DNA of 64,000 bases, from NCBI RefSeq assembly GCF_013350005.1, contig NZ_JABVWW010000014.1, positions 1-64,000 of the forward strand, read 5' to 3'. Positions 5,085 through 52,722 of this stretch are shown one piece after another. Every line of letters begins with the position of its first letter. Positions within the stretch are counted from its first letter, which is position 1. The DNA is from Methylocystis silviterrae. GTDB lineage: Bacteria; Pseudomonadota; Alphaproteobacteria; Rhizobiales; Beijerinckiaceae. The notes beneath the pieces are model-generated. The model saw nothing but the letters and a program-made list of their open reading frames with translations. It had not been told where the DNA came from and did no database searches. A program made the position numbers and the translations under genes.

Positions 5085-6158
5085 ATGACCAGACTCATCA
5101 CCCGCCGCAGCGTGATCGCCGCCGGCGCCGCCGCCGGAACGCTCACGACCCTGCCGATCTCCATGGTGCGCCTCGCCTTCGGCGGAACGCGCGAGGATTT
5201 CAGTTTCACTTATATTTCCGATTCGCACATTCAGCAGATCAAAGGCGCGAGCTTCGTGCGCAACTGGGACATGGGCCTGAAGCGCGCCGTCGCCGAGGCC
5301 AATCTCATCCTCCCTGAAGCCGATTTCGTCATGTTCGGCGGCGATCTCGCGCAGCTCGGCAAGAAGGAGGAGCTCGACCACGGCGGCGAGATGCTTTCGC
5401 ATGTGAAGGGCAAGCTCCACTGCGTCATGGGCGAGCACGACTATTATCTCGACCTCGGCGAATATTGGTCGAAGCTCTATGGTCCGCAGTGGTACAGCTT
5501 CGATCACAAGGGCGTGCATTTCGTCGTGTTGAATTCGATTCTCACGACAGATGAATGGACTTTTCATCGGTGGCCGACGGCCGAGCAGCGCATGCTCGAG
5601 ATGGCCGGCCTCGACAATCCGAACGGTTCGCCGTTCATGGTCGGCGAAAAGCAGCGCGCCTGGCTCAAGGATGATCTCAGCAAAGTGTCCAAGGACACGC
5701 CGCTCATCGTCTTCTCGCATTCGCCGCTGCAGAAGATCTACAAGGGCTGGAATTTCTGGACCGACGACGCCGAGCAGGTGCAGGAGCTGTTGCAGCCGTT
5801 CAAGACCGTCAATGTGATCTACGGCCATGTGCACCAGATCCAGTACAATCAGATCGGCAACATCGCCTTCAATGCGGTGATGGCGACGTCCTGGCCCTGG
5901 CCATATCCCGACACCTATGCGCAAGCCGGCGCGCATGTTCCCGTGCTGACGGTTCCGATGAACCGCGCTGACCCCTTCTTCGAACGCGACGCCACAGGCT
6001 GGCAGATGATCGACGTCAACTCCGGCCGCGTCACCGCGCGCTATCAGCTGTGGGACAACCAGGAGCGCGTCGTCGGCTACGATCCGCGGCTCGGGAAGCC
6101 CGTCGACAAGAAATATCAAGAGGCGATCGTCCGTAAGGCGCCGCAGCTGCATTACTAG
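5085..6158 (+). CDS. Tat-exported metallophosphoesterase (calcineurin-like fold)
   Basis: The 357-residue protein starts with a twin-arginine signal (TRRSVIAAG, residues 6-14), so it is exported folded, probably with its metals. The phosphoesterase metal motifs appear in order: ISDSH (D46, H48), GGDLAQ, GEHDYY, FSHSPL and YGHVHQ. GGGAGG precedes the ATG at a good distance. It sits 70 bases after the di-heme peroxidase gene and upstream of a mono-heme cytochrome, on the same strand. Family members cleave phosphodiesters or monoesters with two Mn, Fe or Zn ions. The linkage of a phosphoesterase to cytochromes suggests a shared periplasmic process, but the substrate is unknown. Confidence 0.82.
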   Translation: MTRLITRRSVIAAGAAAGTLTTLPISMVRLAFGGTREDFSFTYISDSHIQQIKGASFVRNWDMGLKRAVAEANLILPEADFVMFGGDLAQLGKKEELDHGGEMLSHVKGKLHCVMGEHDYYLDLGEYWSKLYGPQWYSFDHKGVHFVVLNSILTTDEWTFHRWPTAEQRMLEMAGLDNPNGSPFMVGEKQRAWLKDDLSKVSKDTPLIVFSHSPLQKIYKGWNFWTDDAEQVQELLQPFKTVNVIYGHVHQIQYNQIGNIAFNAVMATSWPWPYPDTYAQAGAHVPVLTVPMNRADPFFERDATGWQMIDVNSGRVTARYQLWDNQERVVGYDPRLGKPVDKKYQEAIVRKAPQLHY

Positions 6159-47490: not shown

Positions 47491-47954
47491 TTAGCGCTGA
47501 GCCGCGCGAGGATCGTCGCGCGGATCAAGATAGGTAATGTTCCAGGACCCGACGCCGGTGACTTGCATCACCGCGTCGTCTTCGAAATTGACCCAATGGC
47601 CCGCTTCCGCGGGCGTCGCCGCAAAGCCGCCGGCGGAAAGCGTCTTCTCGGCGCTTGGATCGAGCTTAGCTCCCTGGCCGTAACGGACTGCGCCGGACAG
47701 CACCGTCATCGTTTCCATGCCGCTGTGCTTATGCGCGATCCTTTGGGCGCGCGCATGCGCAGGATGTAAGGTCCGCCCTGCGTCGGATCGCCGAAGAGCA
47801 TCGCGACTTCCGCGCCCCTCGGCAGTTCTGGCGGACCGGCCTTCCATTCGAGTTTATCTTGCGAGAACACGAAGCCTGGAGCTTCCGCCATTACGGCGAT
47901 GGGAGCTGCGAGGCTTATGGCCGCGCCCGCAAGAACTGCAGCAAGATTTCGCAT
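47491..47954 (-). pseudogene. Exported cupin protein broken by a frameshift
   Basis: The start at 47954 gives a signal peptide (MRNLAAVLAGAAISLAAPIA) and a cupin first half up to ILRMRAPKGS. That frame ends at 47706. The rest of the cupin barrel (IAHKHSGMETMTVLSGAVRY ... EAGHWVNFEDDAVMQVTGVG) is in another frame that ends at 47491. The switch lies around 47736-47742 and one lost base would explain it. The metal-site residues HKH and H of GHW are kept. It is a recent pseudogene or a sequencing error. It is convergent with pqqDE. Confidence 0.8.
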
Positions 47955-48129
47955 AGCTTGGGCCTCCAAAGCGCCCCTCGCTTGAGATAGTGCGCCGAAG
48001 ACACACAGACGCGAAGAATTCAAAAATTCGATTTCGGTAACAAAGGAGCAACTTCCACAGGGCATATTAAGCCTTGTCTCGCGGAGTTAAGGATTTGTTT
48101 CGCATAAGTTGCGTAATGGAGCTTGTCGC

Positions 48130-48534
48130 ATGAAGTCGCGGGATACGCTTGTCCGTCTCAAACGGTTCCAGGCCGAGGAAAAACGTCGGCGCGTCATCCA
48201 ATTGAATGCAATGCTCGGCGAATTCACGCGCATGGCCAATGAGCTCGAGCGTGAAATCGGTCAGGAAGAGCGGCGCGCCAACATCGACGATCCCAATCAT
48301 TTCGCTTATCCGACCTATGCGCGGGCGGCGCGTACGCGACGCGACAATATCCTTGCTTCGATCGCGGAACTGCGCGGCCAACTCGAAGAAGCCGAAGCGC
48401 AGTTCAAAGAGGCCAGCGAAGACTTCGCCAAGGCGCAAAACCAGGAAGCGCGGGATCGCGGCGCCGAGCGCATGGTTGATGTCGTCGCCGAGCGGCGCCA
48501 CGCCGAAATGCCCGAAGTTTTACGCAGGGCTTAA
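48130..48534 (+). CDS. fliJ: FliJ-like coiled-coil protein
   Basis: The 134-residue protein is charged and helical throughout (MKSRDTLVRLKRFQAEEKRR ... IAELRGQLEEAEAQFKEASE), the pattern of the Rhizobiales flagellar export protein FliJ. FliJ escorts flagellar parts to the export ATPase. GGAG lies 8 bases before the ATG. No other flagellar gene is in the window, so it stands alone, which is usual for fliJ in some Rhizobiales but leaves the call less certain. Its end overlaps the convergent partner gene by four bases. Confidence 0.65.
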   Translation: MKSRDTLVRLKRFQAEEKRRRVIQLNAMLGEFTRMANELEREIGQEERRANIDDPNHFAYPTYARAARTRRDNILASIAELRGQLEEAEAQFKEASEDFAKAQNQEARDRGAERMVDVVAERRHAEMPEVLRRA

Positions 48535-49109
48535 GGCTGAAATAGCCGCCAGCGCAGCCTGCCTCGTGGCGCGCGCGCCCAAACGCCAAATGTTCTTCGG
48601 CGAACGGCGCTGATCTCTTCGCCCCTGGCGAGAGCCTGTGCGAGCGATGCGACATCGAAGTCAAACGCTCGGAGAAAAAGAGTCGTGCCGGAACGCCCGG
48701 CATCGATAAAGGCCAATTCGAAACGCGCGAGGTCGGCGACCCAGGGCGGCTCCGATTCGCACTTTGCGACACGCCTATCGAGAAATGCAGTGAGCGCCGC
48801 AGCGTCCGAGCGATTTGTTGCATCTCGCGAAGCGCCGCGGATCGCCTGGCGGAAAAGCGCATCGAAACGATCGCCCAACGTGCCCGCCGTGAGCGGCAGC
48901 GCCCTGCGCGCATAAAGCGCGCGTTTGCCGATCAGGCTCTGCGCAAAGACTTCCGTTTCGCGCCTGTCGATTCCGGCGAGGCGCTCCGTGTCATGCATAC
49001 TCAAGCCGAAACGCATCGCCACCGCGATCGGCGCTTCGAAGAATTCCCGCCGCAGATCATCGTCGGTGAACAGGCGCGCGAGCAGCGCCTGCGTCTGCGC
49101 TAACGCCAT
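48531..49109 (-). CDS. Partner protein of the DUF692 enzyme (DUF2063/HvfC/MbnC-like role)
   Basis: The 192-residue soluble protein overlaps the 3' end of the DUF692 gene by 10 bases. Its N-terminal part (LLARLFTDDDLRREFFEAPI) is helical. The C-terminal half (PPWVADLARFELAFIDAG) resembles the DUF2063-type partners that deliver the precursor peptide to DUF692 enzymes. MbnC and HvfC play this part in known systems. No catalytic motif is visible, as expected for a binding partner. The role is inferred mainly from gene order and size; sequence resemblance is modest. Confidence 0.6.
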   Translation of the reverse strand: MALAQTQALLARLFTDDDLRREFFEAPIAVAMRFGLSMHDTERLAGIDRRETEVFAQSLIGKRALYARRALPLTAGTLGDRFDALFRQAIRGASRDATNRSDAAALTAFLDRRVAKCESEPPWVADLARFELAFIDAGRSGTTLFLRAFDFDVASLAQALARGEEISAVRRRTFGVWARAPRGRLRWRLFQP

Positions 49110-49939
49110 CGTCCGTTCTCCACGAGCGTTCGTCGCGCGCGCGCCACTTCATCGATGAGTTCGCCGAACGGCGGGATCTTTTCGTCGCGCTCGAGAATGA
49201 CGGCCTTGACCGGCGCACGGGCGACAACGCGATCATAGAGCCGCCAAACCGCATCGCTCGTCGCGGCGTCATGGCTGTCGATCAGCAGGCCGTCGCGCTG
49301 GCGGCCGCCGGCGTAGTGGATTTGCACGAGCCTGTCCCATGGCCACCGCTCGAAGTCGCGTTCGAGATCGACGCCGAAATTCGTCGCATTCACATGCATG
49401 TTGGCGACGTCGCACAGCCAACCGCATCCGGTCGCTTCGAGCGTACGCCACAAAAATTCAGCTTCGTCCATTTCGCCGCCAGGAATGCGCACCACGCAAG
49501 TGATGTTTTCCAAGATCAGCGGCGTCTTGATGCGCCTGCGCACAATTTCGACATTGCGCGCGACGACGTCGATGGCTTCCTGCGTAAATGGCAGCGACGC
49601 AAGATGGCCGATGCTGATTCCGCCCGCGCGCGTGAAGCAAAGATGTTCGCTCCACCAAGGGGGATCAATGCGTTCGATCAGCGCGGCGATTTTATCGAGA
49701 TAGCAAGAGTCGACGCCGTCTGCGCTTCCGATGGAAAGATCGAGACCATGCGCGACGAGCGGAAAATGCGCTCTTAAAAGCTCGAGTTCAGCGAGCTTTT
49801 CTTTTGATGCGTCGAGATAATGATCGGCGATGATCTCGATGAAATCGACATCGTCCCGATGGGCGAAGAGATCGGCGCGACATTGCGGGCGATAGCCGAG
49901 TCCGGACCCGAGCGCCGGCGCGTCAATCGCCGGCGCCAC
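49100..49939 (-). CDS. DUF692 multinuclear iron oxidase (MNIO, MbnB/HvfB family)
   Basis: The 279-residue TIM-barrel protein has the metal-ligand pattern of the family in order: DFIEIIADHYLD, VAHGLDLSIGS, WWSEHLCFT, LILENITC, CDVANMHVNATNFG, IQIHYAGG-like (VQIHYAGGRQRDG), IDSHDAAT and ILERDEKIPPF. Family members such as MbnB and HvfB use two or three irons and oxygen to convert cysteines in a precursor into oxazolone/thioamide or related groups that bind copper. The GTG at 49939 is preferred (GGAG 9 bases upstream); an ATG at 49999 is possible. It overlaps its neighbours on both sides, so the three genes are translationally coupled. Confidence 0.88.
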   Translation of the reverse strand: MAPAIDAPALGSGLGYRPQCRADLFAHRDDVDFIEIIADHYLDASKEKLAELELLRAHFPLVAHGLDLSIGSADGVDSCYLDKIAALIERIDPPWWSEHLCFTRAGGISIGHLASLPFTQEAIDVVARNVEIVRRRIKTPLILENITCVVRIPGGEMDEAEFLWRTLEATGCGWLCDVANMHVNATNFGVDLERDFERWPWDRLVQIHYAGGRQRDGLLIDSHDAATSDAVWRLYDRVVARAPVKAVILERDEKIPPFGELIDEVARARRTLVENGRWR

Positions 49940-50846
49940 AATCACTCGCTCCGCCGTCGCCGCAACTGCCGCCGCAGCTTGATCCGCAATCGGAGCCATC
50001 GCTTCCCGAGCCGCGACTGAAGGCTTCGGCGAACATCGCCTCCGTCGTGCCCTTGAGCGGCGCGAATCCATAAAGGCCGATGAGAAACAGAGCGGCGCCA
50101 TGGAAGGCGCGCGCTTCGGGTCCGGGCGATCCGATGTGACCGACGGCCTCCTTCAGACGGCCGCCATAGGCAAGCCGCATCGCGTCGAGATAGGCGTGGC
50201 CGCGACGGCTCGCATGGGTTCTGGTCAGCACATAGGCGAGCGCGAAAAGCGACGCGACCGACGCAGCTGCGAGAAAGACCAGATAGGCGACATTCACGAC
50301 GCCAGCTGTCCATTCCACATAGATTTTCGCAAGCGCCAGGCCGACGATGATCAGCGTTCCGCCGATCTGCACGCGCCGGCGCCAGATCTTCACGGACTTG
50401 GGCTTGATCAGATCCTCCGCCGCGAGCTTGGCGCGCAGCGGCGCGAGCCGCTCCAGCAGCCAGCGCCGCAAGTTCCGATCTTCGAACAGCGCATGCGCCT
50501 TCGGCTTCGCCTGCACGGCTTCGAGCAGACGCGTCTCCATGGCGTTGAGTTCGCCCGGCTCCGGCTGCTTCTCCGTGGGAATGACGTGATCCTCCGCGGC
50601 GAGGACGACGAAGCCGCGCTGCGCGAGATCGTAGATCAGCGTTCGGATGACCTGATTGACGCCGCCCTGCAGGAAGGCGACCTCCATCGCGTCGGGGTTC
50701 TGCGGCACGGGCGGCGGCGGGCGACGATCGGTGCGATCCGCGAGCCGAATGCAAAGGTAAGTGGTCGCCAGCACAAGGATGACGACGAGGCCGAAGACAT
50801 TGAGAAATTCTGGCCCGGGAAGATTAAGGATCGCAATATTCTGCAC
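49923..50846 (-). CDS. TIGR04222-like membrane protein with a Cys-Gly-rich tail, candidate MNIO substrate
   Basis: The 307-residue protein starts with GTG (GAGG 8 bases before). It has a membrane helix at about 12-33, a soluble part containing AMEVAFLQGGVNQVIRTLIY, two further helices (about 160-205) and a low-complexity C-terminal tail. The tail (279-307) has four cysteines at 287, 291, 295 and 303, each followed by glycine (DCGSSCGGSCG and SDCGAG). This layout matches what I recall of TIGR04222 proteins, whose variable Gly/Ser/Cys tails look like modified peptides. The tail-coding end overlaps the DUF692 gene, so the tail is the likely substrate. Nothing like a cleavage site is evident, so the modified part may stay membrane-anchored. 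Confidence 0.75.
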   Translation of the reverse strand: MQNIAILNLPGPEFLNVFGLVVILVLATTYLCIRLADRTDRRPPPPVPQNPDAMEVAFLQGGVNQVIRTLIYDLAQRGFVVLAAEDHVIPTEKQPEPGELNAMETRLLEAVQAKPKAHALFEDRNLRRWLLERLAPLRAKLAAEDLIKPKSVKIWRRRVQIGGTLIIVGLALAKIYVEWTAGVVNVAYLVFLAAASVASLFALAYVLTRTHASRRGHAYLDAMRLAYGGRLKEAVGHIGSPGPEARAFHGAALFLIGLYGFAPLKGTTEAMFAEAFSRGSGSDGSDCGSSCGGSCGDGGASDCGAGD

Positions 50847-50856
50847 GCCAACCGCC

Positions 50857-51969
50857 TCAGTTCATGATCACGTCTTGCACAAGCCGTCGCGCCTGTAGCG
50901 TCGCGACCGCCAGCACCGCCATGCCGATCGCCTGATGCGCGAGCGCCAGCGCCAGATGCGGGTCGCCGGCGAAGGGCGGCTCGACGAGCACCAACGTCGC
51001 CACGCCAAGCCCGATCTGCATGAGCACATGGCCGAACAGAATCGCTGCGCCGCGGCGCGCGCGCCCTTCCGCGTTCATCCACGCGTCCAGAAGATGCCCA
51101 AGCGCCAGAGCGAAGATCAGATAGGCGATCATGCGGTGGAAGAATTGGACGGTGACCGGATTGTCGACGAGATTGGTCCAGAAAGACTCCAATCGCCACA
51201 AAACGTCGGCCGGAGGAATGAAGACGCCGTCCATCAGCGGCCAAGTGTTGTTGACGAGGCCCGCCCGCAGTCCGGCGACGAGGCCGCCGACGAAAATCTG
51301 CAGAAACACAAAAGCCAGGATCGTCAGCGCGACCGCCTTCAGCCGACCTGCCCCCTCATGCACGAGAGAGACGGCGCGCGGCCCGAGGCCTCCAGCCACC
51401 CATAAACAGGCGGAGAAGATCAGCGCGGCGAGCAGCAGGTGAATCGCGAGGCGCTCCTGCGCCACCTCGATGCGATTGACGAGGCCGGACGCGACCATCC
51501 ACCAGCCGACGCCGCCCTGGAGCGCCCCGAGCGCGAGAATGCCGACAAGCTTCGGCTTCGCCGAACGCGGCAGGCGGCCGGTCACCCAAAACCATATGAG
51601 CGGAACGGCGAAAACCACGCCGATCACCCGCCCGAGAAGACGATGCGCCCATTCCCAGGCGTAAATATATTTGAACCCGGCGACATCCATGTCCGGGAAC
51701 AGTTCCCTATATTGCGGAATCTGCTTGTATGCCTCGAACGCCTCCTGCCACTCTTGCTGGGACAGCGGCGGCAGCACGCCGGTGACGGGCTTCCATTGCA
51801 CGATGGAGAGGCCCGATTCGGTCAACCGGGTCGCGCCGCCGACGATGACCATCAGAAAGACCAGCCCCGCGACGAGCCACAGCCAGTTGCGCACCGTCCG
51901 GGCGTTCGCCTCCGTCGCGTGGTGTCTGATCGCTGGGACCGGTTGGGGAAAATGCAGCCAATCTTCCAT
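50857..51969 (-). CDS. ctaA: Heme A synthase
   Basis: The 370-residue membrane enzyme oxidises heme O to heme A for aa3-type cytochrome oxidases. It has eight helices and the conserved parts LVFLMVIVGGATRLTESGLS, YIYAWEWAHRLLGR, LQGGVGWWMVASGL, GALIFSACLW-like, GGLVAGLRAGLVNNTWPLMDG, VQFFHRMIAYL and ALAHQAIGM, with the four heme-ligand histidines. The ATG at 51969 (MEDWLHF) is chosen by family length. It is 10 bases ahead of the Cys-tailed protein gene on the same strand, so it probably leads that operon. Confidence 0.92.
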   Translation of the reverse strand: MEDWLHFPQPVPAIRHHATEANARTVRNWLWLVAGLVFLMVIVGGATRLTESGLSIVQWKPVTGVLPPLSQQEWQEAFEAYKQIPQYRELFPDMDVAGFKYIYAWEWAHRLLGRVIGVVFAVPLIWFWVTGRLPRSAKPKLVGILALGALQGGVGWWMVASGLVNRIEVAQERLAIHLLLAALIFSACLWVAGGLGPRAVSLVHEGAGRLKAVALTILAFVFLQIFVGGLVAGLRAGLVNNTWPLMDGVFIPPADVLWRLESFWTNLVDNPVTVQFFHRMIAYLIFALALGHLLDAWMNAEGRARRGAAILFGHVLMQIGLGVATLVLVEPPFAGDPHLALALAHQAIGMAVLAVATLQARRLVQDVIMN

Positions 51970-52128
51970 GAGACGCCAAGGGTTTGGAGGCGGATGACGG
52001 CGGCCAGTTAAGGGATGCGGCCCTCGCTTGTCCACACCCGGCGGCCGTCTCTGGCAGGTCGGGCCAATTTGGCTGAAAACTGCGCCGCTTCGGATGTTAG
52101 AATAGCACGGCTTGAGTCGAGGGATCAG

Positions 52129-52722
52129 GTGTCGGGCAAAAGCGATGAAGCGATGCGCACGATCGGCGAGGTCGCGGCGAGCCTCGACCTTCCCGCGCAT
52201 GTGCTGCGCTTCTGGGAAACCCGTTTCAAGCAGATCAATCCTCTTAAGCGCGCAGGCGGACGGCGCTTCTACCGGGAGCGCGACATTGAACTCGTGATCG
52301 CGATCCGCCGCCTGCTCTACGACGAAGGCTATACGATCAGGGGCGTGCAGCGCATCCTCAAGGAGGCTGGCGTCGAGGCGGTCCTGGCGGGCGCGGGGCG
52401 CCGCCAGGCGGACCTGCCCGGGACTCCCTCCCCTTTCCGTCCAGGCGCGGGCGAGGGACGAATCGGGTCAGCGCGAGACGAAGATGAGACGGACGCCGCC
52501 CTCTCGGTCGACGAACGCGCCATTCTGCGCGCGCAAAATCCAGATTTTGCGGGAATCGAGGCCCAGGACGCGGCTCCCATCGTCGAAGTTGACGAGCCTT
52601 TTGCGCCGCCTTCGGCCCGCAGCGAACCGCGCTCTCTTGCCACGCCGCAAACGCGCATCCTGCGCGAGGTTCTGGCAGAGATCGAGGAATGCAAGCGCCT
52701 GCTCAGACTGACGAGGCGATAG
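52129..52722 (+). CDS. MerR-family transcriptional regulator
   Basis: The 197-residue protein has an N-terminal MerR helix-turn-helix ([20 protein letters not shown] and [14 protein letters not shown]) and [11 protein letters not shown], as in the alphaproteobacterial MerR proteins found near ihfA and acyl-carrier genes. The C-terminal half is long, low in complexity and has no metal-binding cysteines. GTG at 52129 is taken as the start (GAGG 6 bases upstream). It is divergent from ctaA; its target is unknown. Confidence 0.82.

Follow-up and report, generated by a model that had tools for sequence, protein, structure and literature searches.

Does the cysteine-rich tail of an integral membrane protein serve as the substrate of a dedicated MNIO (DUF692) enzyme, and on which side of the membrane would the product lie? 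Three genes of Methylocystis silviterrae raise this question. They lie in the 64,000-nucleotide stretch of DNA analysed here (the window) and encode a TIGR04222 membrane protein, an MNIO and a partner protein (Table 1).

Table 1. Coordinates of the operon, of the tail and of the neighbouring ctaA frame
Feature	Coordinates	Strand	Description	Basis
TIGR04222 membrane protein	49923..50846	(-)	307 aa, GTG start	TIGR04222 profile and AlphaFold2
Cys-Gly tail, residues 279-307 of the TIGR04222 protein	49926..50012	(-)	Putative modification site	
MNIO (DUF692) enzyme	49100..49939	(-)	Start GTG 49939 or 49945	PF05114 profile, alignment
Partner	48531..49109	(-)	192 residues; PME-type 2 in the sense of a TglI/MbnC-like predicted fold	
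ctaA (heme A synthase) frame	50857..52200	(-)	Upstream of the TIGR04222 gene, at a distance of 10 bases	

Three overlapping genes and their products

The operon genes are read leftwards and overlap by 17 and 10 bases when the MNIO gene is taken to start at GTG 49939, in agreement with the first-pass annotation of this DNA; a start at GTG 49945 gives 23 bases instead of 17. A convergent fliJ-like gene adjoins the operon, and ctaA stands at the other side. As the operon genes overlap and abut both of these neighbours, there is no space between them for another precursor on the same strand, an argument that refers to open reading frames of at least 60 aa on the operon strand. A profile search found one TIGR04222 gene in the M. 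silviterrae genome, and the nearest named relative of the MNIO occurs in Methylocystis suflitae NLS-7 (98%).

The membrane protein matches the NCBIfam profile TIGR04222 at 80.3 bits (curated cut-off 43), which bears out its original assignment. Its AlphaFold2 model (mean pLDDT 76.8) predicts three transmembrane helices (TM1-TM3, residues 11-36, 150-179 and 183-208), of which TM1 and TM2 flank a soluble domain, and a disordered C-terminus (residues 281-307, pLDDT <50). Foldseek returned no match to this model at E<=0.001, and the TIGR04222 alignment matched sequences of solved structures only at E 1.5 or worse. Cys residues occur at positions 287, 291, 295 and 303, each followed by Gly; for a Cys frequency taken as 0.8-1.2%, a stretch of 29 residues would hold at least four Cys by chance with a P of 8e-5 to 4e-4. 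The four Cys-Gly pairs first described are thus present, whereas conservation extends only to C287, C291 and C295, which are invariant in 15 aligned TIGR04222 proteins with identities down to 24%, C303 being variable. With its C-proximal Cys-rich tail and an MNIO gene beside it, the protein belongs to the group of putative MNIO-modified TIGR04222 proteins.

Membership of the enzyme in PF05114 was confirmed at 278.6 bits (cut-off 25). The iron ligands of TglH are H71, H107, E151, D184, N187, H216, D229, H231 and E258 (PMC10880893), and in an alignment read by eye their counterparts in the window enzyme are H66, H101, E146, D179, N182, H210, D223, H225 and E252. All nine are invariant in 15 aligned MNIO enzymes, so that the metal ligands are intact as had been claimed. 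For FonB, an Asp has been named as the catalytic base, and the residue after it is Phe or Asp in the characterised groups (PMC13097082). Matched by motif rather than by aligning FonB itself, D254 would be the counterpart of this Asp; the residue that follows is Glu255, and both are invariant in the 15 enzymes. Glu at this position suggests a different substrate pocket.

The best NCBIfam match of the enzyme is the BufB equivalog, at 238.1 bits below its cut-off of 310, and the MbnB equivalog gives 49.6 bits against a cut-off of 325. Seven PF05114 genes are present in the M. silviterrae genome: five exceed the BufB cut-off, one is a true MbnB at 423.3 bits, and the seventh is the MNIO of the window, which passes no equivalog cut-off. 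The five BufB-type genes and the MbnB gene lie on contigs C7, C8, C11, C62 and C1. In a 26-row tree of sampled MNIOs, the 18 TIGR04222-linked enzymes form one clade (support 100/100) against eight others, which include this genome's five BufB and its MbnB, the latter a very long row. The likeness to methanobactin that had been read into the tail is rejected on the two MbnB scores, the genome having a separate MbnB; moreover, the motif C-x3-C-x3-C sits in a Ser/Gly tail that is also found in cyanobacteria.

A search with PF09836 (DUF2063), proposed earlier for the partner, gave no match, and none of the Pfam families was found at E<=0.1, so that a DUF2063 partner (PME-type 1) is rejected; NCBIfam yielded only NHLP-type leader families below threshold (24.9 bits, cut-off 40; 20.8 bits, cut-off 34). 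The AlphaFold2 model of the partner (pLDDT 88.8) has its best Foldseek match in the TglHI chain 8hi7_A (E 4.3e-5, TMq 0.65, 15% identity), which we take as TglI from its length of 269 residues. Next come 8hci_A (E 2.0e-3) and then the MbnC chain 7dz9_C (E 0.64), and NGO1945 (3dee) is absent from the best 50 matches. The partner alignment matched sequences of solved structures only at E 1.5 or worse. Lacking the DUF2063 signature and having a predicted TglI-like fold, the partner is classed as PME-type 2.

Distribution of the tail and the enzyme

A TIGR04222 protein above the cut-off was found in 33 of 39 Methylocystis genomes; the MNIO adjoins it in 27, is missing in five (G238, G346, G450, G463 and G465), and is unreadable through a run of N in one (G452). 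The comparison across the genus that the first-pass annotation had called for shows that the gene order ctaA-TIGR04222-MNIO-partner and the Cys tail are both kept. C-x3-C-x3-C is present in 26/26 readable MNIO-positive tails (G449/L069 was left out, as its TIGR04222 frame runs on into the MNIO) and in 0/5 MNIO-less ones, which end early and hold 0 or 1 Cys; in the MNIO-positive tails, 88 of 93 Cys are followed by Gly. The TIGR04222 frame also runs into the MNIO frame in L024, a locus from a metagenome-assembled genome, so that this fused frame is probably a sequence error. ctaA lies directly upstream in all 27 MNIO-positive genomes and in four of the five MNIO-less ones, G465 reaching a contig end. 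This linkage is absent in G318 and G366, the two same-family relatives outside Methylocystis, and was dropped as a functional clue; it is probably genus synteny only.

The five MNIO-less genomes form one clade (support 100/99) inside the MNIO-positive tree, in which MNIO, partner and Cys motif are all missing and the fliJ-like gene directly follows the TIGR04222 gene (5/5). A PF05114 search was negative in four of them, and G238 gave a single match of BufB size (367 bits). The genomes G465, G463 and G450, which have no PF05114 match, are small (1.4-2.1 Mb), with completeness of 98%, 81% and 73%, respectively. Since the coding sequence for the end of the tail shares bases with the MNIO gene, tail, MNIO and partner could have been lost together in one contiguous deletion; this explains the co-loss as well, and we dropped the co-loss as independent evidence for a link between tail and enzyme. 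For the membrane core, pairs without the MNIO give dN/dS values of 0.14, 0.14, 0.27 and 0.30 (dS exceeds 1 for 0.27 and 0.30), and pairs with it give 0.13, 0.14, 0.14, 0.16 and 0.23. Purifying selection on the core without tail and enzyme argues for a separate function of the core, beyond that of a substrate. The clade also offers natural comparison strains.

Beyond the genus, the order TIGR04222-MNIO-partner on one strand recurs in G318, G366 and cyanobacteria (L036-L039, L116, L117, L118 and L122). Genome searches, in which a subset of the first-look candidates was scored for many genomes, gave lower bounds of at least 8/297 in the order, at least 12/149 in the family, at least 1/385 in the class (the window's own genome) and at least 13/292 in the phylum of the Nostoc locus; the sample was drawn outside Actinomycetota, where most TIGR04222 proteins occur according to the literature. 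In a 38-row TIGR04222 tree with several long branches, the MNIO label needs two changes. A second TIGR04222 type is mostly longer (frames of about 450-576 aa, with exceptions near 300 aa) and has no MNIO within flanks of about 1.5 kb in cyanobacteria and some 5-7 kb in the others; most of its tails among those read still carry Cys-Gly. Longer proteins in L009, L010, L041, L112 and L115 have a soluble N-terminal domain before an extra helix, with W-H-x-H-L and L-H-H motifs, and this part matched no Pfam family in L009, L112 and L115.

Four genomes (G307, G326, G330 and G188) encode TIGR04222 proteins with Cys-Gly tails and have no PF05114 match; the tail alone is thus no proof of modification, and we rejected it as a diagnostic of an MNIO. 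These genomes lend some weight to a reading in which plain tail Cys bind a metal (Zn, Cu or other) and the MNIO acts elsewhere. We consider that reading unlikely, as the operon leaves no room between its genes for a different same-strand precursor of at least 60 aa, the MNIOs that accompany this TIGR04222 type form a single exclusive clade, and within Methylocystis the Cys motif is missing where the MNIO is missing. That the tail is the putative substrate of the MNIO appears likely to us.

Orientation of the tail

The sides of the membrane differ strongly in positive charge. The N-terminus and the TM2-3 loop have a mean K+R of 0.71 in 21 positions, as compared with 10.9 in 57 positions on the other side, and the side of the soluble domain and tail is the higher in K+R in 38/38 distinct related proteins. 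When the non-membrane residues were shuffled, the bias of the window protein was reached in 0/5000 trials and that of 11 of 14 non-cyanobacterial proteins in at most 29/5000; the bias is weak in L063, L100 and L084 (375, 368 and 140 of 5000), and in cyanobacteria it is not significant in 7/7 proteins (768-1247/5000). The CtaA control gave the expected direction. In seven longer TIGR04222 proteins, which have a fourth helix and a soluble part at the N-terminus, the side of domain and tail likewise has the higher K/R count. Six of the 15 members of the TIGR04222 alignment (A1) match DUF2207_C (PF20990) at E<=0.05 (best 6.4e-10), the window protein itself having no match at that threshold. If DUF2207 proteins have an exported N-terminal domain, this relation is in keeping with a cytosolic location of the domain that follows TM1.

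By the positive-inside rule the tail is likely to be cytosolic in Methylocystis, against the published placement of such TIGR04222 tails in the periplasm, which was stated from predicted topology (PMC12452194). A periplasmic tail would accord with the signal peptides of bufferins and Buf_EGKCG precursors (PMC12452194); it is improbable in Methylocystis, where the charge statistics are opposite and where the tail, once modified by an enzyme of the cytosol, would still have to be exported by a polytopic protein that lacks a signal peptide.

Proposed modification and known systems

In the scheme that we propose for the cytosolic tail, the TIGR04222 protein would span the inner membrane by three TM helices, its N-terminus lying outside and its soluble domain and tail in the cytosol. 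The TglI-like partner would bind the substrate and the MNIO would oxidise C287, C291 and C295. The most likely product is 5-thiooxazole or a similar heterocycle formed from Cys, at about -4 Da for each residue; this would leave a membrane-tethered, cytosol-facing ligand for a metal, probably copper. Taken as a whole, this conversion of the tail of a cytosol-facing membrane protein into a metal ligand by a dedicated MNIO seems to us evenly poised between right and wrong. The same balance applies to a product of 5-thiooxazole type, suggested by analogy: related MNIOs convert Cys to 5-thiooxazole, each Lys-Cys motif changing by -4 Da, and their products bind copper; the sections of that paper drawn on here tie 5-thiooxazole to PME-type 1 partners, not to type 2 (PMC13097082).

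A copper role of the operon, through metal binding, is possible at somewhat less than an even chance. Among nine neighbours scanned beside the cyanobacterial and same-family clusters there was no shared copper gene, and no copper-specific neighbour was seen in the small selection scanned. More doubtful is an intracellular MNIO product inside an integral membrane protein with a second function of its own, whose thiooxazole-type metal ligands might, for example, sense copper at the inner membrane or offer a surface for its handover there. If the scheme is true, MNIO chemistry extends beyond small secreted peptides to integral membrane proteins, with its product at the cytosolic face. It is very improbable that the membrane protein is a mere carrier whose tail, after modification, is cleaved to yield a free small metallophore: the tail is predicted to be disordered and captophorins function as peptides that are released or exported (PMC13097082), but no protease was noticed among the small selection of neighbours scanned, and the core is kept without the tail.

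The conserved Cys tail and the intact metal ligands support a membrane-anchored putative MNIO substrate encoded with its enzyme and partner. The first-pass annotation had regarded this as a new kind; Antoine et al. (July 2025, PMC12452194) had already proposed operons of TIGR04222, MNIO and PME-type 2 genes as encoding putative MNIO substrates, and the operon kind is known as an uncharacterised prediction. The present operon shares with theirs the three components, the C-proximal Cys in a Ser/Gly-rich tail and the lack of a DUF2063 partner. It differs from their description, as far as the sections drawn on here extend, in a Methylocystis-wide lineage beside ctaA, in statistics that favour the cytosol, and in a clade without enzyme and Cys motif (PMC12452194). 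Two points are new as far as the literature searched shows: the lineage in Methylocystis, including the clade that lacks the enzyme, and the reading of the tail as cytosolic.

Captophorins/bufferins (BufA-BufB-BufC) resemble the operon in the best NCBIfam match of the enzyme, the Cys-Gly context and the iron ligands, whereas the BufB cut-off is missed, a DUF2063 partner is lacking and the substrate would be a 307-aa membrane protein. TglHI (3-thiaglutamate) shares the nine aligned iron ligands and the best fold match of the partner, although in that system Cys is added to a small scaffold, TglA, and the partner has low identity to 8hi7_A. MbnABC has in common the MNIO superfamily and Cys targets, in contrast to the missed MbnB cut-off, the poor MbnC match and the genome's own MbnB elsewhere. 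With DUF2207_C membrane proteins the likeness lies in the six alignment members noted above; to our knowledge, Cys tails and an MNIO are not part of that family.

Two observations concern neighbouring genes. In L037 (3055-6002), YqiJ_N and flotillin genes come after the TIGR04222-MNIO-partner cluster, and L039 (7606-10464) has frames sized like these. In the window, a cupin-like gene at 47491-48065 (-) is split over two overlapping frames (47706-48065 and 47491-47847), whereas L083 has a single 178-codon frame for the same gene (5229-5762); the split reflects a frameshift, either a genuine one or an assembly error.
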